Made by a program: the position numbers and the translations under genes | Source: Roseobacter fucihabitans | GTDB taxonomy: Bacteria > Pseudomonadota > Alphaproteobacteria > Rhodobacterales > Rhodobacteraceae | Reading direction: 5' to 3' | DNA length: 64,000 nucleotides | Assembly (NCBI RefSeq): GCF_014337925.2 | Contig: NZ_CP143423.1 | Location: 2,634,501-2,698,500, forward strand | Notes under the pieces: model-generated | What the model was told of the DNA's origin: nothing | What the model saw: the letters and a program-made list of their open reading frames with translations, nothing else | Database searches by the model: none | Part shown: positions 19,653 to 62,320 of the stretch, one piece after another | Position numbering within the stretch: position 1 is the stretch's first letter | Layout: each line of letters begins with the position of its first letter

Positions 19653-19690
19653 CCCTCTCAGCGATGCTTTGCATCGCCTGCCGGGCAAAG
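19653..19690. repeat. Palindromic element, copy 1, inserted in orfB
   Basis: A 38-nt insert: left arm CCCTCTCAG, hairpin CGATGC-TTT-GCATCG, right arm CCTGCCGGGCAAAG. It interrupts the transposase exactly between the codons for WIKA and VGTKTTY. Removing it restores the reading frame. The same arms recur at 62052-62093 and, more diverged, at 54130-54170 and 61731-61770. Confidence 0.75.
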
Positions 19691-19967
19691 GTTGGAACAA
19701 AGACTACATATATCGAGACTGGGTCACCGTGGGAAAACGGATACTGCGAAAGCTTCAACGGAAGAATGCGTGATGAATTGTTGAACGGCGAAATCTCCTA
19801 CTCGCTGCGGGAAGCACAGATTATTATTGAAAGATGGAGGAACCATTACAACACAAAACGACCACATAGTGCTCTGGGCTACCGCCCACCTGCGCCAGAG
19901 GCCATCGTTCCGATGGACCAAACGCCAATCATGCAATAATTTTCAAACTGGACCACCCAAGTGGGGC

Positions 19968-20432
19968 TGCTCAATTCGGCCAAGACAACCTACCTGAACC
20001 TTGCGACGTTTTATGCTTTCCTGAAACGCCACAGCCAAGACACCAAATACACCCGCCATACCGCTGATCTTTGCGCTGGATCAGGCGCTGACTGACATTC
20101 TGCGGATCGGCGTGACCAAACGCTATGCGCGTATCAGGGCCCGCGCGGATCTGCTGCGTGTCGGCATGCGCAGGCTCAACCTCGAATTCCTGATTGACGA
20201 GGCCGACATGTGTTCGATCCTGACCACCGTGCGGGTGCCGCCCTCGATTTTCGTGCGCGATCTGCGGGACCGGTTGCGGGAGAAATCCATCATCATCTAC
20301 GAAGGTAAAGGGTGCTTAGCAGGCAAGGTGTTTCAGGTGGGCAATATCGGAGAATTATCGGACTACGACATCCAGTTCTTCCTTGCCGCCCTCAAGGATG
20401 TGTTGCTGACCTTGCAGGCTGAGGCGGCTTAA
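19968..20432 (+). pseudogene. Class V aminotransferase (AEP transaminase-like), C-terminal remnant
   Basis: The C-terminal 150 or so residues of a PLP-dependent class V aminotransferase resembling 2-aminoethylphosphonate:pyruvate transaminase. YLNLATFYAFLKRHSQ is followed, after a frame change near 20055-20060, by IFALDQALTDILRIGVTKRY and SIIIYEGKGCLAGKVFQVGN. The front, including the PLP lysine, is gone where the IS3-family element begins. It precedes intact CDP-alcohol phosphotransferase and nucleotidyltransferase genes, the usual partners in phosphonate attachment. Dead gene; the family call rests on the C-terminus only. Confidence 0.65.
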
Positions 20433-20512
20433 CTCGTGGCCCCGGTCAGACCCAAGCGTGCAACTTTGGTTATGCTTCCCAAGCCCGAAGGCGCGCTGGT
20501 AAAGGTGGTGTC

Positions 20513-21280
20513 GTGAGCGGCAAAGTGACCCGGCTTTGGGCCACCAAGACCCGCGATGATGAATGGTGGTCGTCTTTCGTGACGTCGCCATTGGCCATTA
20601 TCGCCAATTCCGTTGCGGTGGACGTTGCGTGGATGACGCCGAACCGGATCACAGCGGCGTCATTTCTGTTCGCCGTGATCGCAACAGTCGCAATCCTGTT
20701 GGGCGGAACCGGATGGTTCATCGCGGCGGCAATCGCGATCCACGTCAGCCACATCCTTGATTGCATGGACGGCCAGATGGCACGCTACCGGCAGGTATCC
20801 TCCCCCGAAGGCAGTTATTATGACCGCCGGACGGATCAGGTGCAGGTCGCGATGTGGTTTGGTGCTGCCGGGTATGCGGCTTTTGTGCAGACTGCCAGCG
20901 TGATCCCTGTCTTCCTCGCGCTGATCGGGATCGCGTTCTATGGCCTGCGCGGCTATGCCAAATACGTTGCCCTGGAAATCGAAACGACCCGCGACCCAGG
21001 CTATCCCGCCGAGATCGCGCGGTTGAAACCAGTAAGGACTACGACGGGGATCGGCTTTGCTCTGCGCGATAACCTTCTGTGGTTTTTGAAGGAGCAACGC
21101 AAAGTGCTCGCCTTTGACGAAGGCGTGTTCATCTTCATGCTTTCCGCCGCCCTCCTCTTTGACCAACTCATATCGATGCTCTGGGTTTTTGCGGCAAGTC
21201 AGCTCTTCTGGGGCAGCTATAAATCCTGGCAGCGCGGCAAAAACATCGCCGAAAACCGGACACGACACCTTCAAAAGTAA
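20513..21280 (+). CDS. CDP-alcohol phosphotransferase
   Basis: A 255-residue membrane enzyme that transfers a phospho- or phosphono-alcohol from a CDP carrier. The full signature D-x2-D-G-x2-A-R-x8-G-x3-D-x3-D is present: DCMDGQMARYR with the later G, D and D in order. Several hydrophobic helices surround it (for example FLFAVIATVAILLGGTGWFI). The start is GTG at 20513 after AAGGTGG. With the upstream aminotransferase and downstream cytidylyltransferase it probably attached aminoethylphosphonate or a similar headgroup to lipid or glycan (inference). Confidence 0.88.
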   Translation: MSGKVTRLWATKTRDDEWWSSFVTSPLAIIANSVAVDVAWMTPNRITAASFLFAVIATVAILLGGTGWFIAAAIAIHVSHILDCMDGQMARYRQVSSPEGSYYDRRTDQVQVAMWFGAAGYAAFVQTASVIPVFLALIGIAFYGLRGYAKYVALEIETTRDPGYPAEIARLKPVRTTTGIGFALRDNLLWFLKEQRKVLAFDEGVFIFMLSAALLFDQLISMLWVFAASQLFWGSYKSWQRGKNIAENRTRHLQK

Positions 21281-21315
21281 TCACACCCCTTGCAGCCCAT
21301 TCAGGACATAATGAT

Positions 21316-22134
21316 ATGAAAAACGAAATCAATCGCCCTCCCATGGCTGTGATACTGGCCGCAGGCGTCGGCTCCAGGCTCAGTCCACTGACAGATAATT
21401 GCGCCAAAAGCCTTCTGTCCGTTGGCGGATCGGTCATTCTGGAAAGGATGATCCGCAATTGCCTGAGTTGCGGTCTGTCACAATTCGTTCTGGTGCTCGG
21501 GCACCGGGCGGATGAGATCAAACAATTCGTGGACAAGACGTTTCGGGGCATCCGTGTCACCTATGTGATCAACGACCGCTACCGCGAGACAAACACGGGA
21601 TATTCCCTGATGCTGGCGTCCAAGGCGGTCGGCACGGCAGAATTTGCCAAATTAGATGCCGACGTCGTGTTTAATGTGAAGATCCTGCGCCAGCTTGCAG
21701 ATGACCGGCGCGCCGATGTTCTGTGCATCGACCAGAATATCGTCCTTGAGGACGAAGAGGTTAAGGTCATCACGGATGATCAGATGCAGGTGCTTGAGGT
21801 TGGTAAATCCGTCGATCCCAAACGGGCGCTGGGTGAATACATTGGGATCGAGAAAATCAGCGCCAAGACGGGCCCGCTGCTTTTTGCGGAGCTTGCGCAG
21901 ATGATGCAGAGCCCGGCACGGTATCAGGATTACTATGAGGATGCTTATGCGCGGCTCTTGGCAAAGGGGGCTGTCTTTCACGTGCTGGATATTACGGGCA
22001 CAAACTGGACAGAAATCGATGACGCTGATGACTTTGCAGCCGCAAACGCGATGTTTGGAACGCCGGTCACGACGGTGTCGCGCGGCCAGCAACGGGCGAT
22101 AGACGAGGCTGCGGCAAAACCGATCAGAGCATAG
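21316..22134 (+). CDS. Nucleotidyltransferase (LicC/PntC-type cytidylyltransferase)
   Basis: A 272-residue NTP transferase. The N-terminal VILAAGVGSRLSPLTDNCAK is the nucleotide-binding signature; KLDADVVFN supplies a metal aspartate; NIVLEDEEVKV and GTNWTEIDDADDF match phosphocholine or phosphonate cytidylyltransferases (LicC, PntC). It would make a CDP-activated headgroup for the phosphotransferase 35 bp upstream. In some bacteria this domain is fused to an AEP transaminase; here the transaminase is a separate, now broken gene. CTP preference is inferred. Confidence 0.85.
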   Translation: MKNEINRPPMAVILAAGVGSRLSPLTDNCAKSLLSVGGSVILERMIRNCLSCGLSQFVLVLGHRADEIKQFVDKTFRGIRVTYVINDRYRETNTGYSLMLASKAVGTAEFAKLDADVVFNVKILRQLADDRRADVLCIDQNIVLEDEEVKVITDDQMQVLEVGKSVDPKRALGEYIGIEKISAKTGPLLFAELAQMMQSPARYQDYYEDAYARLLAKGAVFHVLDITGTNWTEIDDADDFAAANAMFGTPVTTVSRGQQRAIDEAAAKPIRA

Positions 22135-22197
22135 GAACGACCGCAGCCGCCCTATGCCCTTTTGGCACCGGACCGCTGCACCTTGGAAGGACGCAAA

Positions 22198-22326
22198 ATG
22201 GCCAAAGGTAAAAACAGCAACAAAGAGGCGAAGAAACCAAAGCAAGAGAAGCCTAAAGTGGTGGCAACGGCAAATTCTCTGGCGGGCAAGCCCGCACTTG
22301 CGATCGGGAGAAATATGAAAAAGTAG
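22198..22326 (+). CDS. Small basic conserved protein (42 aa)
   Basis: A 42-codon gene, MAKGKNSNKEAKKPKQEKPK, then a short hydrophobic stretch (VVATANSLAGKPALAIG) and MKK at the end. GGAAGGA lies seven bases before the ATG. Small Lys-rich proteins with this opening are found in many proteobacteria, without known function. It follows the nucleotidyltransferase gene by 63 bp. Confidence 0.7.
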   Translation: MAKGKNSNKEAKKPKQEKPKVVATANSLAGKPALAIGRNMKK

Positions 22327-22481
22327 ACGGCGATCTCGCACGCTGGAACTTGTAGGGTATCACAGTGCCTCTTTGAACAGGGTGTTCAGAGAGGCCGCAT
22401 TTTTGACGTGTCTTCGGGGTGGGATTCAATGATCTGCGTTATACAATTAAGGTGCCCCGCAAAAAAACCAAGAGGGCGGCC

Positions 22482-22760
22482 ATGACAGACGAACAAGAAA
22501 AAACCACCACAAAGGTACATTACATCTGCCAGACATACACTGAAAAGAAGACGGGGCGTGGTGCGCAGGTCAGCTTACAAATAGATAAACAGCTCCAGTA
22601 TGCCACTGCCTCACAGGCGCAGGAGCGCGCAGAACGCGAAGTACGCTCTGATAGCTGCGCGGGCGCTGATGCCTATATGGTCACAGAAGACCCAAGTTCA
22701 GGCGAAGTAGGAGAGCCGACGTTTATTGTTCGGCTCGGTTGCGTACCCGAAGCGGATTGA
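22482..22760 (+). CDS. Small hypothetical protein (92 aa)
   Basis: MTDEQEKTTTKVHYICQTYT opens a 92-residue acidic protein with three Cys and no membrane segment. The middle is helical and charged (QAQERAEREVRSDSC). The start at 22482 has AGAGGG nearby. I do not recognise a function; the composition is coding-like and the frame closes cleanly. Confidence 0.6.
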   Translation: MTDEQEKTTTKVHYICQTYTEKKTGRGAQVSLQIDKQLQYATASQAQERAEREVRSDSCAGADAYMVTEDPSSGEVGEPTFIVRLGCVPEAD

Positions 22761-23282
22761 TCCCGGGCTATGTAAGATCGGTCCTGCGCCATGTTTATGT
22801 CCTGCCCTGAGGAGAAAACGTCGCAGTAGGATAGTCGGGACAGGCTCTTGGACTGGCGGCAGGGCCTGACCTGCTCCCCGTAGGTGGCGCAAATTTGGGT
22901 TCGCTTTGTTCAGGTCTTGGTCTTCTTGTGACCTGTTCCACCGGGGTCTGTGGTGATTGAAATCGACGCGCCAGACAGCGATGCGGGCGCGCGCGATCTG
23001 CCGTTCGAAGAATGGACAGAAACCTTCGGCACCGAACGCCTTATGGGTGCACTGCTGTTGGGGCAGACCCGGAGATATGATAAAAGCATAAGAGATCCCA
23101 GCAGCGCTCGCAAATGGGAGAGCGTTGCCATTTGCTCTTTCTGCCTGCGCTCACCCATGAAGCTGCCGATTGAATGACCAATCGACCGCACCACGGTCTG
23201 ATCGGTTGTTCAAAGCGACTTCTGTCGTGTCGAAAAACAAACCAGGTTTTCGCAGGTGGTGTCCCGGCAAATCAGAAAACCA
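22761..23282. other. Gap with IS21 IstB scrap
   Basis: 520 bp without an intact gene. The only recognisable piece is on the plus strand at about 22999-23061, read LPFEEWTETFGTERLMGALL. This matches a short block near the C-terminus of IS21-family IstB ATPases (LPFxEWTxVFGSERLTGALLD). The rest, including a 23065-23180 stretch, shows nothing I can name. Confidence 0.4.
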
Positions 23283-24044
23283 TCAGAGCTGAACGCCCTT
23301 CGTCAACGCGCCGTCGATGACCAGATTGGTGCCCGTCGTAAAGCTGGATGCGGGGCTCGCCAAAAAGACAACACCGCGGGCAATCTCATCTGGTCCAGCC
23401 ATGCGCCCCATGGGATTGAGGCTCATTGCTTCGGCAAATAATTCCGGCATATTCTCTTCGATATTCTGCCAAATGCCGTCTTCGAAATATGTGTTGCCGG
23501 GCGAAACCGTATTGGCACGAATACCCTGCGGGGCCAATTTCACGGCCTGACCCTGAGCATAGTGCACCAAGGCCGCCTTGAACGCGCCGTAAGCAGGGCC
23601 GGTGAAGTCAATTTCACGGCCCGATACCGATGAAACAAGCGTGATTGAAGCCGCATCAGATTTTTCCAGATACGGCATGGCGGCATTTACCAGACGCACG
23701 GAATGCATCATGTCGACCGCAAAACCCGCCTCCCAAGCGGCCTCGTCATCGGCCACAGCAAGGGCCGAGACATTGGCCACCACGATGTCAATCCCGCCCA
23801 AAGCATCCGCTGATGCCGATACCCATTGTTCCAGCGCGGCTTTATCAGCGACATCGACGCCGTTTCCAAATGCGTTGACGCCCTTCGCCTTGAGCGCGTC
23901 AACCGTTTCAGTAACACCTGCGGCGTCGCGCGCACAGATCGCAACATCCGCGCCCTCGGCTGCGAACACTTCCGCGCAACTGCGCCCGATGCCTTTTGTG
24001 CCGCCGGTGATCAGAACGCGACGTCCTTTAAGTCCTAAATCCAT
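23283..24044 (-). CDS. SDR-family NAD(P) oxidoreductase
   Basis: A 253-residue classical short-chain dehydrogenase: cofactor loop ITGGTKGIGRSCAEVF, active site SxxSGREIDFTGPAYGAFKAAL (Ser, Tyr, Lys in register), PGNTYFEDG after it. It lies 11 bp behind the formamidase-like gene on the same strand. Substrate unknown; the neighbours suggest an alcohol or aldehyde released from an amide or amine compound. Confidence 0.9.
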   Translation of the reverse strand: MDLGLKGRRVLITGGTKGIGRSCAEVFAAEGADVAICARDAAGVTETVDALKAKGVNAFGNGVDVADKAALEQWVSASADALGGIDIVVANVSALAVADDEAAWEAGFAVDMMHSVRLVNAAMPYLEKSDAASITLVSSVSGREIDFTGPAYGAFKAALVHYAQGQAVKLAPQGIRANTVSPGNTYFEDGIWQNIEENMPELFAEAMSLNPMGRMAGPDEIARGVVFLASPASSFTTGTNLVIDGALTKGVQL

Positions 24045-24055
24045 GATGTTTCCTT

Positions 24056-25039
24056 CTAGGCTAAGTATTCTTTGCGCATTGATGCGCCCAGCGTATATTT
24101 TGGATCGACCATATTGCCGACGCGCATCTTGCCCGCTTGTGTGGCAAGAAAATAGGCTTCGCTCTCTTCAAAACCATAATCATCCACCATCCAGCGGATC
24201 AGATCGCGGTAGGCCATCCGGGCGGCATCTTCCATCGGCCGTGCGGATCCGACGGACATGATAAACTCTTCTGTTTCCAAGCGCACGCCTGGGATGGACC
24301 ATCCCTTGATCAGATCAATATGCAACACCACCGTCGCAGGAATTTCAACGGCAACGCCGCAAAGCTCCCCATCGCCCTGTCGGCCATGGCAATCGCCAAC
24401 AAAGAAATGGGCGTCTTTGCGCTGGACCGGGAAATACACCACAGCACCGGGTGCCACATCGGGCAGATCCATATTGCCGCCCCAATAATCCGGTTGCAGA
24501 GCCGACACCGCTTCGATTTCCGGGCTGATGCCCATCGTCCCAATGAAAGGCTCAAACGGCAGCGTGATGCGATCAGAAAACTTCACGCCATCTTCGGTCA
24601 CCTCCATTTTTTTGACGCGTTCCGGCATGCCGGGATTGAGCATGAGGTTCGCATCCGCCACCAATGCACCAAAGCTGGGGATCAACGCTGTGGTGCCTGC
24701 GGGCTGTGGTCCGCGCGGCAGCACGCTGTGGATATGAACGGCCAGAACATCGCCTTTTTCGGCACCCTCAACCGCGATCGGGCCATTTTGCGGGTTCACA
24801 AAGGGCATATTGAGCACCTGGGAGGGCATGTCGTTTTCGGTTTTGATAACGCCTCCGAAGGCGTCAAGTGTTTCAACCTCAACGACATCGCCGGGCGCGA
24901 TGCGCAGCACCGGATCTGCATAGGGCCCGTAAACGTAGTGAAACGTGCCCTGGTCCTCCTCGCTCAGCTGGTGCTTTGATCCGAGCTGACCTTTGGCAAC
25001 TGCTTTTTGACCCATGATTGATTGAGATATCCATGACAT
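24056..25039 (-). CDS. Acetamidase/formamidase family protein
   Basis: A 327-residue metal-dependent amidase of the FmdA/AmdA family that hydrolyses short aliphatic amides to acid plus ammonia. Conserved blocks: APGDVVEVETLDAFGG, NPQNGPIAVEGAEKGD, IGTMGISPE, GGNMDLPDVAPGA and GDCHGRQGDGELCG. I placed the start at 25039 (MSWISQSIMGQ), with AAAGGA upstream; 25012 (MGQKAVAKG) is possible. It lies between the glutamine-synthetase-like gene and the SDR gene, so released ammonia could be captured next door (inference). Confidence 0.92.
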   Translation of the reverse strand: MSWISQSIMGQKAVAKGQLGSKHQLSEEDQGTFHYVYGPYADPVLRIAPGDVVEVETLDAFGGVIKTENDMPSQVLNMPFVNPQNGPIAVEGAEKGDVLAVHIHSVLPRGPQPAGTTALIPSFGALVADANLMLNPGMPERVKKMEVTEDGVKFSDRITLPFEPFIGTMGISPEIEAVSALQPDYWGGNMDLPDVAPGAVVYFPVQRKDAHFFVGDCHGRQGDGELCGVAVEIPATVVLHIDLIKGWSIPGVRLETEEFIMSVGSARPMEDAARMAYRDLIRWMVDDYGFEESEAYFLATQAGKMRVGNMVDPKYTLGASMRKEYLA

Positions 25040-25177
25040 ACGAGACGATTCCTTTGGGGCGTGGATTGTTTGAGACAATTTAGCCCGGATCAACAACGGC
25101 GCCAGAGCGCGGACAAAACGAATGCCTGATACCCAAGATAAATCCGCCAGCTTTCCCGACCCGGCGAACCCGAGCGC

Positions 25178-26488
25178 TTAATATGTGGCTTCATAGGCCG
25201 CGCATCTCTCGACCACATCCATATCGGCAACATGTGCAATCTCAGCAGCCTTATGCGCTCGGTACACGGCCGCAAACGGGTCCCCAAACCAGGACGTGGC
25301 GGTTGCATCCTGCTCAAACGCATCAATTGCGGCCTCAAGCGTTTCCGGCAACCTGACAAATCCGCGTTTGTGCAAGGCTTCCTCGTGGAGCAGGGACAGG
25401 TCTTCTTCTGTCGGGTGGCCCGCCGACAAACCGTCCTCAATACCTTGCGCCCCCGCATGGACAATCGCCGCCAGTGCCAGATAGGGCGAGGCGGCGGCAT
25501 CAGCAGCGCGATATTCGATGTTGAACTGCTGCGCAATTGAGATCGGATCTTTGGCCGTAACGGGGCAGACCCGCAAAGAGGCCTCTCTGTCGCGAAACCC
25601 AAGATTGTTATAGGCGGCGGACCAACGGTGCGGTGTCAGGCGTTCATATGAAATGACCGAAGGGGCCGTCAGCGCGATAATGCTGGGCAAATACTTCAGC
25701 ACGCCGCCGGCAAAGGCGTCGGTGAGCTGCGACATGCCGCAGTTGCCGGCCTCATCATAGGTGACCGGTGTTCCTGCGTCATCGACAAAGCTCATGTGGA
25801 TATGCACGCCGTTCCCAACACTGGCCACATCGCGAATAGGTGTGAATGTCGCCGCCTCGCCCAGGGAGCGCGCCACGGAGCGGGTGAGTTCTCGCAATAT
25901 CACCGCCTCATCGGCGGAGCGCACACCCTGAGCCGGGCCAACAACAACTTCATATTGGTTGGGCCCATATTCTTTCATGATGCTGTCGGGTGCCAATCGG
26001 GCTGTTTTCAGCGCAAACATAAGCGTTTCACACAATTCCCGTTGCAACTCGAACCCCTCACGACCGTAGGCCTGATACTCCAGCGCGGGCGGGGATTTGA
26101 GCTGAAACTCATGCTCAAAGGCGCTAATCAGGTGCACACCCGCCACGTCATGCAATCGCTTGAGCGCGGCTTTCAGGAGTGAGCGCATGCAAAGTTCCCA
26201 GGGATCGCCGTTCAGTTTGGTAATGTCCCCGATGAGGAAATGTTCGTTCTGTCCACCCGGCAAACTGACGTCAACCGCGGTATTTCCGTCCGGTATCAAC
26301 AGCAGATCCCCCAAGGCACCAAAAGGGCTTTCCCCGATGCGGTCAAAACAGGTGATCTGGACATTGGTTGGCGTCCAGCCAACCCCCCTCACCAGACGCT
26401 TTTCCAATTGATCGGCGGGAAATGCCTTGCCACGCACCTTACCTGCGATATCGCTGGTGGCTGCAAAAATCAGAGGCATAGTGTTCAT
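25178..26488 (-). CDS. Glutamine synthetase-like ligase
   Basis: A 436-residue member of the glutamine synthetase family. Visible GS blocks are the metal-binding EHEFQL and YGPNQYEVVVGP, the ATP-site GNGVHIHMSFVD, and NLGFRDREASLRVCP. The catalytic core is complete, but the sequence is not the housekeeping GlnA; gamma-glutamyl ligases acting on amines group here. The start at 26488 (MNTMPLIFAATSD) has AAAGGACC upstream and overlaps the RpiR stop by ATGA, so the two are translationally coupled. Substrate uncertain. Confidence 0.88.
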   Translation of the reverse strand: MNTMPLIFAATSDIAGKVRGKAFPADQLEKRLVRGVGWTPTNVQITCFDRIGESPFGALGDLLLIPDGNTAVDVSLPGGQNEHFLIGDITKLNGDPWELCMRSLLKAALKRLHDVAGVHLISAFEHEFQLKSPPALEYQAYGREGFELQRELCETLMFALKTARLAPDSIMKEYGPNQYEVVVGPAQGVRSADEAVILRELTRSVARSLGEAATFTPIRDVASVGNGVHIHMSFVDDAGTPVTYDEAGNCGMSQLTDAFAGGVLKYLPSIIALTAPSVISYERLTPHRWSAAYNNLGFRDREASLRVCPVTAKDPISIAQQFNIEYRAADAAASPYLALAAIVHAGAQGIEDGLSAGHPTEEDLSLLHEEALHKRGFVRLPETLEAAIDAFEQDATATSWFGDPFAAVYRAHKAAEIAHVADMDVVERCAAYEATY

Positions 26489-27333
26489 GTTTGCTGGTCC
26501 TTTGGGGCGATCCTGAGGTCTTCCCAGGCTTCCATGCGGGCGCGCGTTTTGTCCCAATTGTGCTCAGCGATGCGGGTCACAATGGCTTCTGTCACGGCAA
26601 GTGCGGCTGAATAGGTATCCCATAGCGTCCCGCTGTCTATGGGGACGGGCAAGACTTCCCGGGCATGTTTCGAAATTGGTGATATCCATTTGTCCGTCAT
26701 CAGGACGATCCGGGCATGACGCACCCCGGCGGCCCTGCGCGCCAGCTGTTCCAGCAGCGGATCGTAGCGGCGAAAATCGACCATGTAGAGAATATCACCC
26801 TGGCGCATCCGCAGCAGATAATCGGGCCATTCCTCCGCATTGCTCGGGAGTTGAAACACGTCCTTCCGGATCAGCTGCAAGTGAAAGGTCAGGTGTTTTG
26901 CAATCGTATCACTGATCCGCCCGCCCAGCACGTAGATGCGGCGTTTCGGGTCAGTCAGCAAGGCGCATATCTGAACGAATTGATCTTCGGTAATGGCATC
27001 TGCGGCAATCGCCATTTGAGACGTGGATTTTGCGATGAAATCCTTGAGAAAACCACCTTCTACCTGCCTGTTGGGCGCATGAAGCTCGATCGGCGAGCGC
27101 AGGCCTTGTTTAAGCTCGGAAATCAGCTCGCGCTGGAATTCCTGATAACCCTCCAAACCAATCTTGGTCACAAAGCGGGAGATGGATGGCGCCGACACCT
27201 CGGAGTGTTTTGCAAGCTCATGGATCGGCGACAGACCCGCAAACGGATAGTCCGACAAAATGGTCGCGGCAAGCTTGCGCTCTCCGGTCGTCAGGTTTTC
27301 CGCTTCTTTTTCAATACGCTCACGGATCATCAT
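26485..27333 (-). CDS. RpiR/MurR-family transcriptional regulator
   Basis: A 282-residue repressor with an N-terminal RpiR helix-turn-helix (residues about 1-75; HSEVSAPSISRFVTKIGLEG is the recognition region) and a C-terminal SIS domain that senses a phosphosugar or other ligand (IYVLGGRISDTIAKHLTFHL). It is divergent from the isochorismatase-type amidase and ABC genes, with palindromic sites between, and is the first gene of the minus-strand operon. It therefore very likely controls both arms. Confidence 0.9.
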   Translation of the reverse strand: MMIRERIEKEAENLTTGERKLAATILSDYPFAGLSPIHELAKHSEVSAPSISRFVTKIGLEGYQEFQRELISELKQGLRSPIELHAPNRQVEGGFLKDFIAKSTSQMAIAADAITEDQFVQICALLTDPKRRIYVLGGRISDTIAKHLTFHLQLIRKDVFQLPSNAEEWPDYLLRMRQGDILYMVDFRRYDPLLEQLARRAAGVRHARIVLMTDKWISPISKHAREVLPVPIDSGTLWDTYSAALAVTEAIVTRIAEHNWDKTRARMEAWEDLRIAPKDQQT

Positions 27334-27523
27334 ATGCCGGTAATTGCCTTTCTTTTCAACAAAGGTGTTCGAATTATAATTTCACGTCAACAATTTTTAT
27401 TGACAATGAAATATTAGTTTCGTTTGCTTTACCGAACGAAAACGGATCACGGATGCCCATGCCTGCTCAGAACACCTCCTTTTTCTGTGGTGTCTGAAGA
27501 TGCTCGCACAATCCTAAGAGGAC
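27334..27523. promoter_or_regulatory. Divergent promoter/operator region of the amide cluster
   Basis: Between the RpiR gene and the amidase gene. It is A+T-rich and contains TTGACA at 27400-27405 and TATAAT (minus strand, about 27376). Three inverted repeats lie here: AATTATAATT near 27372, GAAA-N6-TTTC near 27409-27422, and TTTCGTT-N10-AACGAAA near 27418-27441. These are good operator candidates for the RpiR protein. Assignment is by position only. Confidence 0.45.
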
Positions 27524-53969: not shown

Positions 53970-54620
53970 TTAATCTGAGGCGTATCCGGCAGCTTTGAGG
54001 AGGTTCCGGCATTCGCTTGGATCAAACAGATCACAAATGTCGCCGAGGGCCTGGAAGTTTGTATCAAACGTTTTTGGCCCGATCCGTCTCAGATGGGCTT
54101 TGAGCTTTGAGAAAGCCATCTCGATCATTGGCCGTCAGGGTATTGCGCAGCAATGTCCCGAGAAGCAATAAAGTGTGGCTCCTGGCGCATGCGCGGCTGG
54201 CGGTGGTTGATCCACCCCCGCCTTGCCCTGCGCAGGGCAGGCCGATTACGTTCCCGTGCGATAAGTCCTTTTTTCATATAAGAACCCGGCGCGTACCAAG
54301 GCGCGGTGAATTGATGAGAGGTGAACAGATACGCCAGACGTGTCTTCCAGCGCGCCGGATAGTTCATGCAATGTTATGTCTGGTTCGGCACGGATAACCC
54401 CGATTAAGAAATCCTTATACGGTGCCAGCTGGCCAAATCGGCCCACCGGCCTGCCCTGTGGTCTGGGCGTGACGTCGCGCCGCTCTCGTTTGTCCGCAGC
54501 ATAACGCACCCCCGTTGCCGCACTGACACCAAAAATACGCCCTGCTGCACGACAAAAGATCCCAGCAGCAACATACCCGCAAATCCGGTGCCGAAGATCT
54601 AAAGAAAGAGGTTTGCCCAT
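53970..54620 (-). pseudogene. IS630-family transposase, frame-broken and missing its catalytic centre
   Basis: Reads MGKPLSLDLRHRICGYVAAG, then HRALVRAGFLYEK. A frame change at a poly-A run near 54272 leads to KKGLIARERNRPALRRARRG and RQPRMRQEP. It then jumps, through the palindromic segment, to [20 protein letters not shown] and [10 protein letters not shown]. The central DDE part, about 150 residues, is absent. Some IS630 elements use programmed frameshifting at poly-A, so that break alone may be natural; the deletion is not. Confidence 0.8.
54130..54170. repeat. Palindromic element, copy 2 (in IS630 copy A)
   Basis: Minus-strand reading: left arm GCTTCTCGGG, hairpin ACATTGC-TGC-GCAATA (core ATTGC/GCAAT), right arm CCCTGACGGCCA. 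The arms align with those of the copies at 19653 and 62052. It sits exactly where about 150 codons of transposase are missing, and matches 61731-61770 over 44 identical bases. Confidence 0.6.
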
Positions 54621-54767
54621 CATCCACCTCCACACTGAAAATGAAGCAGACAAAGACTCCTTTGGGAAACACAAATCAATTCAGATTAAACGCAAACCGC
54701 TTTAAGGTTCTGGACGCTATCTCGCCGTCAGCAAAAAATGTGAGGCGGCACCGGGAAAACCACACTG

Positions 54768-55550
54768 TTACTCAGCCGCAATAGATCCGCCGTTGCTCAA
54801 ATGCGCCAGGGAATGCCAATCCCTGACAACAACGCGGCTTGGCGATAGCAGGCTTATGTAGCCATCAGATTTCAGGCGTGTGAATTGGCGGCTGACGGTC
54901 TCGCTTTCCAACCCGATGTAGTCACCGATCTCGCCGCGCGATATTGGTATGCGGATTTCGCCGCTTGCGTCATTCACCCCCATTCCCCGATCGTTTAATT
55001 CAATCAGCAGTGATGCCAGCCGTTCGATCGGCGATTTGCGACCAAGGGTGACAAGATGCGCCAGTGCCCAACCGATCTCTCTATTCGCGTGGGAACTCAT
55101 ATCAATATTGAATTGACGACTTTCCAGACGGAGCTTTTCGGTTTTTTCAGCACCCAAAACCAAGAGCGCCGCATCTTCTACAACTTCAACTCTGGCAAAC
55201 CATGGTTCCGCCTGCGTCAGAAGGGTGATGAATTCACCCGGAAACCTAAGGCCCACGATCTGGGTCCGACCGTCGCGAAACGACGTTGATAATTTCACCA
55301 TGCCATTCAGGACCGCAATGAGTCCTTGCTGCGCCGAACCCTCGTTGGCGATGATGCTATGCTTGTTTGCGCGCTTTATGTAAGCGCCCTCGGCGCAGAG
55401 TAATGCGTTCAGCGAGCCGCCAAGTATCGCCCCATTCAGCGTCCCGGTGAAAATCCCAGGATCAACGCCGACATCGGCCTCTGTTTGCTGAAGCTTGTGC
55501 GGATATCTGTCATTCACGGTGTCAGGCTCGCTTTTTGACCACACCCACAT
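54768..55550 (-). CDS. Crp/Fnr-family transcriptional regulator
   Basis: A 260-residue regulator: cNMP-type beta-roll (VLNGMVKLSTSFRDGRTQIV, LRFPGEFITLL) and C-terminal helix-turn-helix (ISRGEIGDYIGLESETVSRQ). The cysteine cluster of O2-sensing FNR is not seen, so it is not a classical Fnr; FixK- or other-type sensor is possible. It stands alone, with the IS630 derivative downstream and a large A+T-rich promoter region upstream containing GGTAAA inverted repeats. Confidence 0.88.
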   Translation of the reverse strand: MWVWSKSEPDTVNDRYPHKLQQTEADVGVDPGIFTGTLNGAILGGSLNALLCAEGAYIKRANKHSIIANEGSAQQGLIAVLNGMVKLSTSFRDGRTQIVGLRFPGEFITLLTQAEPWFARVEVVEDAALLVLGAEKTEKLRLESRQFNIDMSSHANREIGWALAHLVTLGRKSPIERLASLLIELNDRGMGVNDASGEIRIPISRGEIGDYIGLESETVSRQFTRLKSDGYISLLSPSRVVVRDWHSLAHLSNGGSIAAE

Positions 55551-56131
55551 GCGGCACTATTATTTACCACCTAACCACCCACCTCCCTTAGATTAACAGT
55601 TGGTTCAGTAGAGGCGCTTGTTTAGAACTCAAATTTATAACTTAGTGGTAAACATTATTTACCTCTAAAGTCAATCATTTTATGCCGCGCCGCAGCAATT
55701 CAATGCGCATTGCTTGATCTTGTTAAGAAAACTTTTTGTGATCAGCGCGTCCAAACCAAAAATGCGCAGGTATATGCGTCAAGACAGGATCACGCTTACG
55801 AATCAAATTTCATCGGACCGCAGGCGCTTTCATCGTGCTCCATAAGCCGTCAGTGACGTGACCCAGATTTGCCGGATCGACGAACCTGACGCGCATCCCA
55901 TAAGCCCGTTGCTCAGTGCGCGCCGTACTCCACGCTCACGGAACTCACCTTCGCGCTCACGACCCGTCTTTCATTACCTTCGGTGTAGCAAACGCAATCA
56001 ATGGAGCGACATCAAAACATGCCAGGTCCACGTCACCTCAAGCCACTCTGCCCGGCACAGTTCGCGTGAAAGAAATTGTAAAATTAGAAAAGCTACTTTA
56101 GGTTGCAAACGTGGGCTATGGAGTAGAGACG
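55551..56131. other. Long intergenic region, divergent promoters
   Basis: About 580 bp between the Crp/Fnr and GH19 genes. The half next to the regulator is A+T-rich and holds TTTACC motifs (55563 and 55643-55667). The other half contains only chance frames. No RNA or mobile element is recognised. Confidence 0.45.
55643..55667. promoter_or_regulatory. Operator-like inverted repeat upstream of Crp/Fnr gene
   Basis: TAG-T-GGTAAA-CATTA-TTTACC-T-CTA: nine of ten mirror positions pair around a 5-base centre. It lies about 95 bp upstream of the regulator ATG; another TTTACC is at 55563. It is a protein-binding-site candidate, possibly for autoregulation. Confidence 0.45.
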
Positions 56132-56764
56132 ATGAAAAAAATTGACAGAAAAGCCTTTTTCGACACCATCCGGCAGAAACTATTTGGCGGAACCCTGAGC
56201 ACAACTCAGGTTACTGGTATAACTACTTTTCTTGATTATTGGGAAAAAAATTACGGTGATGCCGATGACCGCTGGCTGGCTTATGTGCTCGCCACGGCGC
56301 ATCATGAGGTCAATCAAACCTTTACCCCGATAAGTGAATATGGCGGGGATAAATACTTCTTCAGAATGTATGATATCGAAGGCGACCGACCCCATGTTGC
56401 CAAGAGATTGGGCAATCTTGCGAAAGGAGACGGCGTGCTGTTTCACGGGCGCGGGTTTGTTCAACTGACGGGTCGATCAAATTATGCGTTTTGGGAAAAG
56501 CGTGTCCCGAGCGGCGATCTGACCAGCAATCGCGCAGCTGCGGACCGTGTGCTTGAGGTTGGCATTGCAACAGAAATCATCTTCGAGGGCATGGTGGAAG
56601 GCACATTCACGGGTAAAAAGCTTGCGGATTATATTGCCAACGTCAAACAGGATTATGTGAATGCGCGACGGATCATAAACGGCGTGGATAAGGCCGATTT
56701 GATTGCTGGCTATGCCAAAAGCTATAACAATGCCATTTCTTACGAAACGTCGCTGTCGGCCTAA
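56132..56764 (+). CDS. Glycoside hydrolase family 19-like (chitinase/endolysin) protein
   Basis: A 210-residue lysozyme-like protein of the GH19 class. The catalytic region YVLATAHHEVNQTFTPISEYGG carries the general-acid Glu; GVLFHGRGFVQLTGRSNYAFW is the second hallmark block. No signal peptide, as in phage endolysins and secreted effectors. It cleaves peptidoglycan or chitin. ATG at 56132 after GGAGTAGAGA. No holin or phage genes are nearby, so the role is open; the downstream membrane and DUF2589-like genes may be partners. Confidence 0.85.
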   Translation: MKKIDRKAFFDTIRQKLFGGTLSTTQVTGITTFLDYWEKNYGDADDRWLAYVLATAHHEVNQTFTPISEYGGDKYFFRMYDIEGDRPHVAKRLGNLAKGDGVLFHGRGFVQLTGRSNYAFWEKRVPSGDLTSNRAAADRVLEVGIATEIIFEGMVEGTFTGKKLADYIANVKQDYVNARRIINGVDKADLIAGYAKSYNNAISYETSLSA

Positions 56765-56793
56765 AGGTCAACGGGGATAGACACAATCAGCGC

Positions 56794-57774
56794 TTAATCC
56801 TGAGCATCGCGCTCAGCGGGTTGCCGCGCTGAGTAGCTTGTCTCCCCCCTTCCTTGCCCCCCTTGGACCGAGGACGGATTTGCCACGCGCGGCTGAAAGG
56901 GCATTTGAATATTAGACGGCGTCTGTTCATCGGGTGTGTAATCAAAGGCGCGCTTTAATGCGTTAACGATGCTGTTAAGCACCATATGGATAACGCTGGC
57001 GGAAAACCCTCCGAGAAGCGCAAGGAGCGTGTCTGACATCCCGCCAAAACCGGCACCTGTATCGCTGCCCTCAACCAGAACCTGCTCACTTCCGATAATC
57101 TCGGCAAGCATCAGGCCAGCGACCACACCAAGGCCGATCTGCATCCAGATTGCACTATCAGCCAGCGGCTCATAGCGGTGTTTTCGAAGGTCCTCCCAAA
57201 CGGTAAACAACGCTGAAAAACTCGCCCCCAGGCCAGCAGCGGACAGGATGAGAGCAAGCTTGACTGCCAAAGGCGTGCCGTTCAGTTCATAAATGCTTTT
57301 GGACATCGCCTCAATGTTGATGTCGGCCGACAGGCTGATGGCAAAGAATGTGAGGGCGAAAAAGAGGCTTGCAATCGACAGCCTTCGCACGCCCGGCGTT
57401 GGCCCGAGAAAACCTGACATCCGCCCGGATGCTTTGCCTTGCTGAAGCGACAGGAGTGAACGCTGCTTGGCAGGTGCGACCGCTTCCGCCAGAAGCCCAT
57501 GCAGCGAAATCAGGCCCTCCAGCGGCATATCCGCCTGTTGTTCCAGTTGCGAAAGCCCGGCGGCAGCCTCCTGCCCGATCGCACGGCCATCTGAGAGGAG
57601 AAACAGCGCCATGGCTTCGATCTCGCGAACCGTATCGGTTCGCAGTTTTTCGCTCAAGTTATTGACCCTCATGTTCCGCTCGCGCTTTTGAACCGGGGCT
57701 TTGGGGTCTTTGGCCGTACGCGGGGTGTCGGACTGATCACTCTCGGTCGAAATGGTGGCAATTTTGGTATTCAC
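56794..57774 (-). CDS. Hypothetical multi-span membrane protein
   Basis: A 326-residue protein of unknown function. It has a charged N-terminus (RVNNLSEKLRTDTVREIEAM) and a helical region. Four hydrophobic segments follow between about residues 130 and 265 (SLFFALTFFAISLSADI, LALILSAAGLGASFSALFTV, IGLGVVAGLMLAEIIG, LLALLGGFSASVIHMVLN), then a Gln/Pro/Arg-rich tail. It is convergent with the GH19-like gene (29 bp between stops). Confidence 0.7.
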   Translation of the reverse strand: MNTKIATISTESDQSDTPRTAKDPKAPVQKRERNMRVNNLSEKLRTDTVREIEAMALFLLSDGRAIGQEAAAGLSQLEQQADMPLEGLISLHGLLAEAVAPAKQRSLLSLQQGKASGRMSGFLGPTPGVRRLSIASLFFALTFFAISLSADINIEAMSKSIYELNGTPLAVKLALILSAAGLGASFSALFTVWEDLRKHRYEPLADSAIWMQIGLGVVAGLMLAEIIGSEQVLVEGSDTGAGFGGMSDTLLALLGGFSASVIHMVLNSIVNALKRAFDYTPDEQTPSNIQMPFQPRVANPSSVQGGQGRGETSYSARQPAERDAQD

Positions 57775-58264
57775 AGTGACAGCCCTCCCGTGCAGATAGA
57801 AAATCCTAGCACTTCAAACCCTTCGATTCCAGCGGCACTGCAAACCCTCTCCAGCGCGTGCACCTGAAGGGCGGGATCCGCTGTTTGATTTTTATCGGCG
57901 CCGGGGGGTCGAATGCACCGCGCGGAATCTGCAATAAAAACCGAGTGAAAGACATTCCTGGCACGATGCGCAAAGCAGAAAACGCCCCATTGCCATCTCA
58001 TCATGCGCACCACTCTCCGCGCCGTGCAGCTACGCTGACAGTCCTGTTTTGAAATGCCGAAAAATTGCCGCTAAGCGACTGTGATTTCCGCCCGTGTTAT
58101 CCAAAACCATGCGCACATGGTGCGCTTGGATATCGCTTTGCGAAGTGCTTTTATACCCCTGCATCAGTCCTCAAGCAGTGCGACAGGTTGCCCCCAGGAC
58201 ATAACGCTTGTTGGAAATATCCGCGCTGTGCACTCACTTTTAAACCCGATTTTAGGTGATTATC
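57775..58264. other. Intergenic region without recognisable gene
   Basis: About 490 bp between the divergent membrane-protein and DUF2589-like genes. It should contain both promoters. Only chance frames; no repeat or RNA is supported. Confidence 0.45.
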
Positions 58265-58811
58265 TTGGCCAGCAGTGTTGATCTCGGAGACCTAGTAGAT
58301 GCCATTGCGAATGGTGTCTTAGAGGCTCAAGACCATGTGAAGAGACATCAAATCGCCCTTCTTCACAATTACTTCGATAAAAATCATCGCCCCATTACAC
58401 TCAAAATCCGTGTGCCCTCAATGCGAGATGATCTTGATGAAGACGAGATGGGAGTCCCCCTTCTCTCTCTGGTCGGCACAACAAGACTGGCAATCAAAGA
58501 CCTCGAGGTATCCAGTACCCTTGCGCTTGGTGATTTGAGCAGCGTGCCAATTGAAAGCGCGGACGGGGATGAAAAAGCCGACGCGGCGGGGTATCCAAAG
58601 GACGACGTTGACGCAAACAGTCCGAAAAAACAGATTTCTGCGTGTGGTCTTACCAAGAGATCAGCGCTCAACGTCGACATGAATGCGACAAAGAAAAACC
58701 CGGTCAAATCATCCGCCGAGCTCAAATTAACGGTGGAAGCCCAAGTGAAGTGGTCCGGCAAAATCGGACAGCGTGCTAAGATGTATCCAACAACGACGAC
58801 AGGATACACAA

Positions 58812-59090
58812 ATGACGAAGAGACGCAGTTTTTCAGACAAGTTCAAAGCTACGGTGGCGCTTGAGGCGCTTCGTGGAGACAGGACGGCGCAAGAGATTGC
58901 AACCAAACATAAAGTTCATCCGACGCAGGTGACGACATGGAAGCGGCAGGCGATTGATGGCCTGACGGACGTGTTTTCTGATAAGACCAGGAGAGCGGAA
59001 GACAACGAAGCCGAGGTCAAAGAGCTTCATGCAAAGATCGGTAAGCTGGCGGTCGAAAATGATTTTTTGTCACAAGGGCTGAAGCGATGA
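58812..59090 (+). CDS. IS3-family transposase OrfA
   Basis: A 92-residue OrfA: MTKRRSFSDKFKATVALEAL, helix-turn-helix around AQEIATKHKVHPTQVTTWKR, and a C-terminal helix ending FLSQGLKR. It belongs to another IS3 subgroup than the element at 18710. The frame is intact and overlaps the orfB start by four bases. Confidence 0.88.
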   Translation: MTKRRSFSDKFKATVALEALRGDRTAQEIATKHKVHPTQVTTWKRQAIDGLTDVFSDKTRRAEDNEAEVKELHAKIGKLAVENDFLSQGLKR

Positions 59091-59645
59091 ACCCGACCGA
59101 ACGCAAGGCGATGATCCGCAAAGACCTGGCAGATCTGAGCCTGACGAAGCAGTTTAAGTTGCTGAAGATAAGCCGGTCGTCACTGTACTACGTGCCAGTC
59201 GGCGTGAATGCTGAGACGCTGGAACTGATGAACGAGATTGATCGGGTGTTCACCAAATATCCGTTCTTCGGCAGCCGCCAGATTGCGGCATACTTGCCTA
59301 GAAATCGTTTCCGTGCTGGCCGTCACCGTGTGCGTCGGCTGATGGGCATCATGGGCATACAAGCAATCTACAAAGGACTAAACACCAGCAAAAACACCCA
59401 CAGCATCGCATCTACCCCTACCTGCTACGGAAGTTACCAATCACGCGCCCCAACCACGTTTGGTGTAGTGATATCACCTACATCCTCATGCGGCGCGGGT
59501 CTTGTATCTGGTGGCGATTATGGATTGGGCGGCGCGCAAGGTGCTGGCGTGGCAGTTGTCGAACACGCTGGATGCCACCTTCTGTGTTGAAACCCTAAAC
59601 GAAGCCATCGCAAAACAAGGCAAGCCCGAGATCATGAATTCCGAC

Positions 59646-59902
59646 AGTCATAGAATGGACACCAGTTCTCGGGTGGTTTGACTCTAACACCGATCGACCA
59701 TTCGTTGGGTTGGTACCGCTTGGCCTCTTGGTGTGATCTGACCCTCACTCCGATCGACCTGACTTGTGTCTTTCCCTGGACCTGTCGATCATCCGGGAAC
59801 GCTTTGCGGTGAGGCTTCGTCTCGAAGATATCGCGTGACCAAAGAAGGGCCTGACCACTTGGTCTCATGACTGTCCTGTCCGTGCATTCTTTCTGGTGAA
59901 GT
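59646..59902 (+). ncRNA. Left non-coding end of IS110 element, candidate bridge RNA
   Basis: IS110-group elements encode a bridge RNA in the non-coding end that pairs with target and donor DNA; with a 257-nt left end and 16-nt right end this element fits the IS110 (left-end) arrangement. A near-duplicate, TGACTCTAACACCGATCGACC and TGACCCTCACTCCGATCGACC (18/21 identical), recurs at 60-bp spacing (59679-59699, 59739-59759). The RNA is inferred, not detected. Confidence 0.4.
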
Positions 59903-61051
59903 ATGTCGAAAGCCGCCGCAAAGGATGATCCCATGGGCAAAACTAAGCAAACCATCCCAGTCGTTGGCGGGGTTGATACGCATAAAGATCTTCATGTTGC
60001 GGCAGTTGTCGATGATAATGATCAAGTGCTGGGCACGCAGAACTTTGCGACGACGCGGCAGGGTTACAAGTTGATGCTGGCGTGGATGCGGTCATTCGGG
60101 AACCTGCAGCGCATTGGGGTGGAATGCACCGGCAGTTGCGGCGCAGGACTTTTAAGATATATGCAGGTCGCTGATGTTGATGTTCTGGAGGTAACCGCAC
60201 CACACAAGCTGGATCGAAGACGGCGCGGCAAGAATGATGACTTTGATGCTGAAAGTACCGCCCATGCGGCTTTCGCAGAGCGGCGCACAGTCACCCCGCG
60301 CAGTCGAGATAGAATGGTGGAATCCCTGCGTGTATTGAAGGTTTGCCGCAATGAGGAGGACCAGCAAACAGCGTGGGGCGCTGTTTGCCCGACGCATGCG
60401 GTTCAAGCACGCCGGATCGCGCTGCAAATAATCCAGACGACAATTGTTTGCGCTCCGGATCGATTGCGCGACACTCTGCGCAAAATGACCCGTATGCAAT
60501 TGATACGGACTTTGGCGGCCTGGCAGCCCGACTTATCAGGGTATCGGGATGTTGAAGAAGCCTACAAGATCGCGCTCAAATCACTGGCACGTCGTTATCT
60601 CGAACTGCATGACGAAGTGGCCGACCTTGACGATATGATCGAAGCAATTGTCAAAGACCTGGCTCCAGAGCTGATCGCACGCAACTCAATTGGGTTGAAC
60701 AGCGCGGCCCAACTTTTGCTGACTGCAGGTGACAATCCTGAACGACTGAGATCAGAGACAAGCTTTGCTGCTCTATGCGGTGTCAGTCCGGTTCCGGCGT
60801 CATCAGTCAAAACAACACGCCACCGGTTGAACCGGGGCGGCGACCGTGCCGCCAACAGCGCGCTTCATATCATTGCAATTGGACGGTTGCGACTGGATTC
60901 AAAGACCCAAGAATACGTGGCGCGCCGAGTAGCCCAAGGCCATTCCAAACTCGAAGCAATCCGCTGCGTCAAGCGATACATAGCTCGCGAAGTCTTCAAC
61001 ATCATCGCGCGACGCCACAAACAGATCAATCGGGCTCAGATCGCGGCTTGA
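59903..61051 (+). CDS. IS110-family DEDD recombinase with in-frame stem-loop insert
   Basis: A 382-residue serine-assisted RuvC-like recombinase. N-terminal acidic residues in GGVDTHKDLHVAAVV, ECTGSCGAGL and GKNDDFDAESTAHA; C-terminal Tnp20 domain with SFAALCGVSPVPASSVKTTR and HRLNRGGDRAANSALHII. Relatives read KVCRKTAVQARR where this one has an extra dozen or so residues (NEEDQQTAWGAVCPTHA), encoded by the hairpin at 60364-60388. Frame is intact. Start may be 59903 or 59933 (MGKTKQT). Confidence 0.88.
   Translation: MSKAAAKDDPMGKTKQTIPVVGGVDTHKDLHVAAVVDDNDQVLGTQNFATTRQGYKLMLAWMRSFGNLQRIGVECTGSCGAGLLRYMQVADVDVLEVTAPHKLDRRRRGKNDDFDAESTAHAAFAERRTVTPRSRDRMVESLRVLKVCRNEEDQQTAWGAVCPTHAVQARRIALQIIQTTIVCAPDRLRDTLRKMTRMQLIRTLAAWQPDLSGYRDVEEAYKIALKSLARRYLELHDEVADLDDMIEAIVKDLAPELIARNSIGLNSAAQLLLTAGDNPERLRSETSFAALCGVSPVPASSVKTTRHRLNRGGDRAANSALHIIAIGRLRLDSKTQEYVARRVAQGHSKLEAIRCVKRYIAREVFNIIARRHKQINRAQIAA
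60351..60395. repeat. In-frame stem-loop insert in IS110 recombinase gene
   Basis: Perfect 10-bp stem GCAAACAGCG/CGCTGTTTGC around TGGGG (60364-60388), flanked by GAGGAGGACCA and CCGACGCATGC. The coded residues are extra compared with related recombinases; length is close to 42-45 bases so the frame survives. Its right flank TTTGCCCGACG resembles the complement of the CGGGCAAA arm in copy 1, hinting at a related element. Confidence 0.5.
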
Positions 61052-61631
61052 CACTTAGAAGGGCGTCCAGGGCTATAGTTCACGGGTGCAGAGTGGATCA
61101 CCACCTTGACCGAGGCAGATGTCAAAATCTCAATGGATGGTCGAGGTCGTCATCTCGATAACATCTTCATCAAACGGCTGTAGCGGTCGCTCAAACAGGA
61201 GGCCGTTTATCTGCACGAATTACAGGATGGGTTCCAAGCCAAACGCGTGATCAAAGACTGGATTGGGTTCTACAACTCTGAACGGCCTCACACAGCCCTA
61301 GACAAGCGATCCCCCGACGATGCGTTCTTCGACATGGAACGAACCCAAAAGGCGGCATGGCTCCAAACCCGATTACATCTTAGCTGAGCCGCAAAACTGT
61401 CCAAATAAGTGGGACCACTTCAGTCAAAGCAGACGGCACCCTAGCCACCCCCGGTGAGACAATAGGGCACATACGCATTGCCAGGTTCCAGTTTCAGCAC
61501 CCCGCAACCCCTGTCGTTGCGGGCCAGGACGCACCCGACATCGAAACCGTCTCCTTGGGTGTTCCTTTGCTGGCAATCCTGAATATTCCAGCCTTATCGA
61601 CAAATCGTAACTGCTCCATTTTTACCGCAGT

Positions 61632-61926
61632 GACTGAGCGTGATCGGCCTGCGCTGCGCCAGACACGTCAGGAGTGGATCACGCGCCGCCAGCCAAGGAT
61701 GCGGCAGCGAACCTCACGGGCTGGTCTTTATTGCTTCTCGGGACATTGCTGCGCAATACCCTGACGGCCAGTGATCGAGATGGCTTTCTCAAAGCCCATC
61801 TGAGACGGATCGGGGCCAGAACCTTCGAAGCCCTTGGCGACATATGCGACCTCTTCGATCCCCAAAAATGCTGGAACTTCATCAAAGCTGCCGGATATGC
61901 CTCAGATTAAATACAAAACGCTTTAA
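61632..61926 (+). mobile_element. IS630-family remnant (copy B)
   Basis: The back end of the same IS630 derivative as at 53954-54705, now on the plus strand: [19 protein letters not shown], the palindromic segment, [13 protein letters not shown] and AAGYASD-stop, then ATTAAATACAAAACGCTTTAA. The N-terminal third is missing. It carries the same internal deletion junction as copy A, plus small deletions of its own. Confidence 0.75.
61731..61770. repeat. Palindromic element, copy 3 (in IS630 copy B)
   Basis: GCTTCTCGGG-ACATTGC-TGC-GCAATA-CCCTGACGGCCA; identical to copy 2 over 44 bases while the transposase sequence on both sides has drifted. The arms align with copies 1 and 4. Confidence 0.6.
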
Positions 61927-62024
61927 AGGCGCTACTGACAAGATATCAGCCGGTGCTCAAAGGTTGTCGCGAAATTTCAGACCAATCGTTAAGGTGGATC
62001 GCATGACGAGAGAAGTGATCCAAG

Positions 62025-62320
62025 ATGACGAAACGAAAGAACCATTCGTCCCATTGCCCGGCAGGGTCATGCATAGCATGATCCCGAGAGGGTGAATTCA
62101 AGGCCAAGGTTGCGCTTGAGGCGATCTGCGAAGAAATGACATTGGCGGAGTTGTCGAAGAAGTAGGGTGCCCACCCCACGCAGATTGGGACTTGGAAGCG
62201 TGCAGCGATAGAAAACATGGTAACGGCATTTACGCGCAGAGATCCAGTTCCAGAACAGGTGAGCTCGGCTGACGTTGATAAGCTGCATTCTATCATTACA
62301 GACCACGACCAACAGCAGTG
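62025..62320 (+). pseudogene. IS3-family OrfA remnant interrupted by palindromic element
   Basis: Reads MTKRKNHSS, then after a 42-nt palindromic insert, FKAKVALEAICEEMTLAELS, then KK-stop-GAHPTQIGTWKRAAIENM and VSSADVDKLHSIITDHDQQQ before TGA. The stop replaces the tyrosine of the usual KKYGVHPTQI. The end of OrfA is lost. No orfB follows. Dead remnant. Confidence 0.7.
62052..62093. repeat. Palindromic element, copy 4, inserted in orfA remnant
   Basis: Reverse-strand reading: CCCTCTCGGG, hairpin ATCATGC-TAT-GCATGA, CCCTGCCGGGCAATG. The arms match copy 1 nearly base for base (CCCTCTC-A/G-G and CCTGCCGGGCAA) while the hairpin sequence differs. It separates the codons for HSS and FKAKVAL of OrfA and brings a TGA into frame. 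Confidence 0.72.

Follow-up and report, generated by a model that had tools for sequence, protein, structure and literature searches.

Hairpin elements of 36–45 nt in Rhodobacteraceae, apparently tiny parasites residing almost only in the genes of other mobile DNA

The present analysis concerns a family of small palindromic elements, met at four sites of a 64-kb stretch of the Roseobacter fucihabitans genome (hereafter, the window), where they lie within transposase genes of insertion sequences (ISs). All four palindromes were found where a first-pass annotation, made from the sequence alone, had placed them, and all were recovered by a covariance model: in a search of the window and 60 other stretches with an E value threshold of 5, the window matches were these four sites only. 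Each element spans 36–45 nucleotides (nt) and consists, in the forward direction, of a CCCTCTC arm, a variable hairpin and a TGCCGGGCARTG arm. The pattern CTCGGGAN{8,30}CCCTGNCGG, which covers three of the four sites, occurs three times in the window and in none of 100 shuffles, and none of 4227 Rfam families matches the window at its gathering score. As detailed below, the family apparently represents a tiny parasite of parasites, inserted at preferred spots almost only in other jumping DNA.

Coordinates of the window sites and of their hosts are collected in Table 1. Excision of the 38 nt of the 19653 copy joins DWIKA to VGTKTTYIETGSPWENG in one frame, as had been anticipated, while the OrfB frame is lost when the element is present; its host contains a second frame change upstream of the element, and the same context is present at two more places of the genome (L106, L110). 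At the 62052 site, removal of 42 nt restores the orfA frame (MTKRKNHSS-EFKAKV), one base off the canonical 41 nt, and another stop is found further downstream. The 54130 and 61731 sites, read against an IS630-type copy holding three elements, are two-element hybrids rather than simple insertions: the left flank and half of the first element are joined to the right half and flank of the third, with about 390 nt between the ends lost. The hosts are indeed transposase genes, of two families, IS3 and IS630, the orfA and orfB hosts looking like two IS3 lineages; these names derive from homologous contexts (for the 19653 host, a tblastn match of L106 to IS3) and from reading, not from a family search of the window fragments.

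Table 1. Palindromic elements of the window, their hosts and covariance-model scores
Feature	Coordinates	Strand	Remarks
Element in IS3-type OrfB gene, sense	19653..19690	+	38 nt, CCCTCTC-hairpin-TGCCGGGCAAAG
Element in IS3-type OrfA fragment, antisense	62052..62092	-	41 nt, canonical
Hybrid element in IS630-type transposase remnant	54126..54165	-	scar of a ~390-nt deletion between two elements
Hybrid element in second IS630-type remnant	61734..61772	+	same kind of deletion scar
IS3-type orfA/orfB remnant, host of the 19653 element	18753..19940	+	from open reading frame list and reading, limits approximate
Covariance-model match	62049-62093		64.6 bits
Covariance-model match	54123-54167		62.8 bits
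Covariance-model match	61732-61776		62.3 bits
Covariance-model match	19652-19693		46.1 bits

The hairpin stems vary in sequence and keep pairing, a feature already remarked from the four window copies and confirmed on a larger collection. In 106 distinct 41-nt elements, 510 of the 530 cells of the five inner stem pairs are paired, and compensatory cells number 65, above all of 500 shuffles of the same pairs (mean 11.7, maximum 21), the pairing offset being the best-pairing of those tried. In a set of 242 distinct variable segments, the mean length of the longest uninterrupted stem is 5.7 pairs, versus 2.8 after shuffling.

The window belongs to a genome of 4.85 Mb (G000), in which the covariance model and genome scan suggested by the first-pass annotation revealed many further copies: 31 with a strict pattern (none with the reversed-pattern control), 119 with a looser exact-arm pattern (one with the control) and at least 147 with the model, a figure obtained by scoring 150 of 4360 candidates, so that more copies may exist. 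Within the 60 fetched stretches and the window, 208 matches to an E value of 5, brought to 215 by regular-expression additions, correspond to 106 distinct contexts; two matches kept in these counts, L129:1038 (16 bits) and L127:869 (14 bits), are probably due to chance, as perhaps is L145:3732, found by regular expression only. A systematic sample of 20 stretches, 300 kb in all, contained two convincing elements, located in an IS200 gene and in an apparent IS3 remnant, three weak matches (20 bits or less) being set aside.

Comparison with intact relatives of the interrupted genes shows that the arms are foreign to them. Inserts could be delimited in IS3 (four, of 36, 36, 41 and 41 nt), in an IS5 of Dinoroseobacter shibae (two, both of 41 nt), in IS21 (eight, of 37–45 nt, all in one IS21 fragment) and in IS1182 (two, of 41 and 41 nt), as well as in a DUF3768 plasmid-type gene (L197:1501-1545), which contains a clean 41-nt antisense insert seven codons before its stop and has a closely similar empty allele in the Octadecabacter plasmid pow41. 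At the audited sites the flanks join directly and no base is duplicated or lost, within the drift of a base or two in the ends as placed by the aligner. Insert lengths include both multiples and non-multiples of three, and some inserts, as read from the alignments, carry an in-frame TGA or shift the frame. The candidate reading of the arms as integral parts of transposases was rejected on the basis of these empty sites. Of the two outcomes that would have refuted the first-pass annotation, arms native to intact relatives and a lack of further copies, neither was seen.

The right flank of the elements is biased towards GATG (G.75, A.67, T.58, G.63 at 194 sites), corresponding to insertion just 3' of CATC on the other strand; the exact tetranucleotide is found at 48 of the 194 sites, and at 46 of 141 distinct sites from public genomes and viral contigs among the matches listed, the two sets sharing some genomes. 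The flank and orientation counts rest on 194 of 257 contexts, the 63 lacking recognisable ends being left out; within the host gene, elements are in sense orientation in 88 cases, antisense in 70, unassigned in 30 and conflicting in 6. Once repeated loci had been removed, several positions were found to be occupied more than once. At position 358 of the IS3 reference, seven distinct contexts hold four unrelated hairpins at the same base and in the same orientation; base and orientation are likewise shared by four contexts at IS3 position 985, and three contexts fall at each of IS3 position 493 (two hairpins) and IS21 position 2216 (three hairpins).

Most elements of the R. fucihabitans genome reside in IS genes. 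When independent transposases, drawn from the annotated plasmids of other bacteria, were used, 75 of the 106 contexts had a match at a distance of up to 400 nt on one or both sides, versus 47 of 1900 control positions evenly spaced over 300 kb of the same genome. A wider transposase set, partly circular as it includes pieces of element-bearing ISs from this genome and a related one, matches 101 of the 106 contexts, versus 56 of the 1900 positions and 49 of 2000 random GATG sites. Two of the five contexts left, L103 and L110, belong to an IS3-type copy in which the remaining elements do match; the others are L138, beside IS3 contexts, L129:1863, an IS91-type recombinase by eye, and the weak L129:1038. 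Pfam analysis of the contexts identified IS66, IS256, IS200, IS21, DDE_Tnp_1 and IS3-type (rve) genes, and tblastn assigned one context to IS1182. Overall, the hosts belong to IS3, IS5, IS21, IS66, IS110, IS200, IS256, IS630 and IS1182, with IS30 and an IS91-type recombinase added by reading.

The same tendency is found in related genomes, where 121 of 152 distinct contexts have a hit in the wider set; these derive from 159 of 200 model matches, repeat loci and four weak rows (23–25 bits) being left out. For the other 31 contexts, pieces of 24 loci were examined with Pfam, which detects IS-type or integrase domains in five cases, other domains in six and none in 13. By eye, the six include an IS3 remnant (L177), an IS5 (L187), the DUF3768 gene (L197) and a RelE-type gene (L077), together with two loci with no recognised host (L217 and the weak match L081); among the 13, L230 and L242 are IS5, and no host was recognised for L073, L071, L173, L078 and L191. 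In public and viral stretches, 98 of the 141 distinct sites among the matches listed hit the wider set, and the other 43 include several transposases by eye and at least two instances of the RelE-type gene. The preference for IS genes, suspected from the window, is therefore strong but not absolute, because the DUF3768 gene and the RelE-type gene also hold elements. The latter, part of an antitoxin pair, is a rare non-IS host in which the element occupies apparently the same place in three separate stretches (L077:1501, L277:1346 and L382:1472).

Carriers are mostly marine bacteria of one family, the Rhodobacteraceae, some with well over a hundred copies. With one genome per genus and an E value of 1e-4, 57 of 149 genera carry the element; at an E value of 0.01, 23 of 35 genomes from the genus and family (counting that of the window) have matches, and none of 24 genomes from elsewhere in the class does. 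Some of the weakest genus and family matches are perhaps due to chance, and one of them, L082, is partial and lies beside apparent ribosomal RNA. One exact form of the element matches at least 120 stretches of a species-genome collection; nine viral stretches were analysed together with these. The 80 titles among the matches listed are nearly all of Rhodobacterales or unspecified Alphaproteobacteria, the exceptions being a Labrenzia, a two-site Vreelandella contig and a planctomycete metagenome-assembled genome, whose match is unlike a proper hairpin. The Vreelandella neptunia contig (NZ_JAKVTW010000024.1; L271, L326), from a gammaproteobacterial assembly, holds its two elements in IS3- and IS5-type genes, reflecting either transfer with an IS or contamination.

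Many element-bearing ISs are present in multiple copies, and some hosts are plasmid-borne. Eight copies of one IS3 hold two to five elements each, IS21 fragments are found in four copies with three to ten elements, and a further IS3, in G117, in four copies with elements. On the D. shibae plasmid pDSHI04, an IS5 with two elements occurs in three identical copies, which feature, outside of the elements, a TGA where IS1248A has TGG; IS630 copies with further frame-breaking deletions are also multi-copy, and IS630 hybrids missing most of the middle of the gene are found in several copies. As ISs carrying a nonsense codon or deletions are multi-copy, the simplest explanation is that a related enzyme moves them in trans. 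An IS1182-type IS in G012 agrees with this least: each of its four copies, which are 100% identical over 1.4 kb or more, contains a 41-nt element, and the remainder of the 488-codon frame is open; in that genome no element-free copy of the stretch was found, and a fifth, partial copy stops short of the site. Empty copies of the same IS were likewise not seen among the fetched G000 loci, which were chosen for having elements. Deletions of about 150 nt (L100/L098, IS3) and of about 390 nt (the IS630 of the window) end in element pairs and are found in several copies; the elements shape IS remnants by recombination.

We regard these sequences as probably a family of non-autonomous, single-hairpin, site-specific mobile elements, 36–45 nt long, which parasitise IS genes. 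A trans-acting enzyme would recognise the element as single-stranded DNA, by its folded hairpin and its arms, cut both ends and join it 3' of CATC, by a chemistry like that of HUH or structure-reading tyrosine enzymes; the element would then interrupt transposases and spread on ISs moved by a related active enzyme. Clean insertion, a hairpin with conserved arms, a preferred tetranucleotide and a fixed orientation with respect to it resemble single-strand HUH transposition. When compared with the IS200/IS605 type, hairpin and clean insertion are seen here, but CATC is only a preference.

Several points weigh against this view. Neither a mobilising enzyme nor a circle nor a fresh insertion was observed, the fetched loci yielded no autonomous long form, and only about a quarter of the sites have the exact GATG. 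If elements exchange hairpins, the same base could seem to have received several insertions, and common descent of the ISs accounts for part of the agreement between contexts. Furthermore, Y1 transposases (PF01797) were not detected in the element-bearing genomes G016, G020, G021 and G031, nor Y2 (PF04986) in G012, G021 and G031; both are thus undetected in G031, which is rich in elements. Among the nine genomes with at least seven matches, Y2 is present in seven (G000, G003, G009, G014, G016, G020 and G025, not G012 and G031) and Y1 in five, including G000, patterns which may both be confounded by IS load. The enzyme may be of another type, act from elsewhere or have been lost. Twenty right-arm matches with no left arm nearby are, by reading, either element variants or unrelated sequence.

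The preference for IS genes might also arise by survivorship, an explanation which we consider possible, though we incline against it: the element would insert widely, insertions in host genes being harmful and others decaying, while those borne by ISs are copied and passed on. The occasional residence in the DUF3768 and RelE-type genes, the multi-copy state of element-bearing ISs and the plasmid location of some hosts would all be in line with it. However, none of the 106 G000 contexts was recognised as intergenic or as an ordinary gene, in a test whose sole criterion is a transposase match no more than 400 nt away on one side or the other, although intergenic insertion should often be tolerated. 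In addition, the two convincing elements of the 300-kb systematic sample were in an IS200 gene and in an apparent IS3 remnant, and a single IS21 fragment holds eight elements. A dedicated Rhodobacteraceae system might write 40-nt hairpins into transposase genes, either as a hyperparasite aimed at mobile elements or as a host defence silencing ISs through hairpins inserted at fixed sites. We hold this to be rather unlikely, and know of no description of an insertion system of either kind.

It is unlikely that the elements are a REP family moved by a TnpAREP/RAYT Y1 transposase. Clean insertion beside a tetranucleotide agrees with IS200/IS605-type chemistry as generally known, and the size class, the imperfect hairpin and the conserved flank agree with the REPs described in PMC8266576. 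In contrast, the arms CCCTCTC and TGCCGGGCARTG lack a GTAG or CGTC tag, the elements are not intergenic, four element-bearing genomes have no detectable Y1 gene, as listed above, and the three Y1 genes inspected in G000 do not have the arms as their ends.

A translational bypass, in which ribosomes skip the hairpin, interrupted transposases work and their ISs keep spreading, would explain the four identical, otherwise open IS1182 copies of G012, for which no element-free copy was found, and the many interrupted genes which show no other lesion in the compared parts. Copies which share inserts differ by 26 synonymous and 37 non-synonymous variant codons, which by a rule of thumb may mean fewer protein changes than under neutrality, though the numbers are small. 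The byps of yeast mitochondria, which are translational-bypass elements, lie in sense orientation in functional genes. Here sense and antisense insertions are similarly frequent (88 versus 70), and an IS carrying a nonsense codon, the D. shibae IS5, has still multiplied to three identical copies, for which reasons a bypass is very improbable; insert lengths that are not multiples of three, and the several copies of IS630 with frame-breaking deletions or without the middle of the gene, add to this. That the arms are an ordinary part of transposase genes, or the palindromes due to chance, is practically out of the question: nothing was found in its favour, the arms are absent from intact relatives, and the reversed-pattern controls gave 0 and 1.

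Among known systems, the closest precedent by IS preference is the pneumococcal RUP, a non-autonomous element of 107 bp which, according to a review (PMC2229807), is found in more than six IS families, where it inactivates transposase genes, has IS630-Spn1-like terminal repeats, inserts at TA, is tabled with a target duplication and counts 108 intergenic copies; the same review raises the question whether RUP limits transposases. The present elements are similarly small, non-autonomous and inserted in several IS families, but they measure 36–45 nt, duplicate no target, prefer GATG and lie nearly all in IS genes. As for RUP-type terminal repeats, no resident IS with matching ends was found in the fetched loci, apart from one weak IS91-type resemblance. 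In this IS91-type element of G000 (L428:1156-1190; C1, near 2251355), a sequence near the left end, CCGCTGCCGCGGCAATGG, exceeds the right arm CTGCCGGGCAATGG of the hairpin elements by one base, which could be due to chance or be a lead to the mobiliser.

By size, the nearest analogues are the REPs, described in PMC8266576 and PMC3733652 as imperfect hairpins of 20–50 nt with a conserved flank, present in many copies, probably moved as single strands, mostly intergenic and usually tagged by GTAG (or CGTC). Hairpin size, conserved flank and copy number are shared, whereas the elements described here are intragenic in ISs, have other arms and occur in several carriers with no detected Y1. By residence in genes, the Rickettsia palindromic elements, to which the first-pass annotation had compared the window copies, are closest; according to PMC2229807 they are 105–146 bp long and carry reading frames that form in-frame fusions with conserved genes of many kinds. 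Both are palindromes inside genes, and the comparison stands as an analogy of size class, but not further, the present inserts being of 36–45 nt and carrying in-frame TGA codons or frameshifts. Group II introns, such as RmInt1 in the IS ISRm2011-2, likewise reside at specific sites inside other mobile DNA, but they are far larger, encode their own enzyme and splice; small dispersed repeats of cyanobacteria are very small mobile hairpins of another lineage and sequence. None of RUP, REP and Rickettsia elements fits on the features tested. Consistent with the first-pass annotation, which did not recognise the family, no description of it was found in the titles, abstracts and passages of the open literature that were searched.

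To our knowledge, these elements rank among the smallest mobile DNA sequences proposed for bacteria. They insert with a clean signature into a target that can be read, and filled and empty sites occur naturally in many pairs, so that a question dating from the RUP studies, whether small elements aim at transposase genes and tame them, becomes testable; finding unrelated hairpins at one and the same base also points to a direct assay for the enzyme. If true, aimed integration or IS silencing would go beyond the known kinds of element. Element-bearing ISs also matter for annotation: the two-element IS of D. shibae is a stretch with no listed transposase in the gene table, itself incomplete, of the plasmid collection.

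A different insert, also of 41 nt and composed of a pair of small hairpins (CTCGCCAAAGGCGAG and GCGCACCTTTGGTGC), was observed in an IS21 gene (L137, about 3008-3048) and again in another species (L163 and L228 of G012); it is perhaps a second family of tiny elements.

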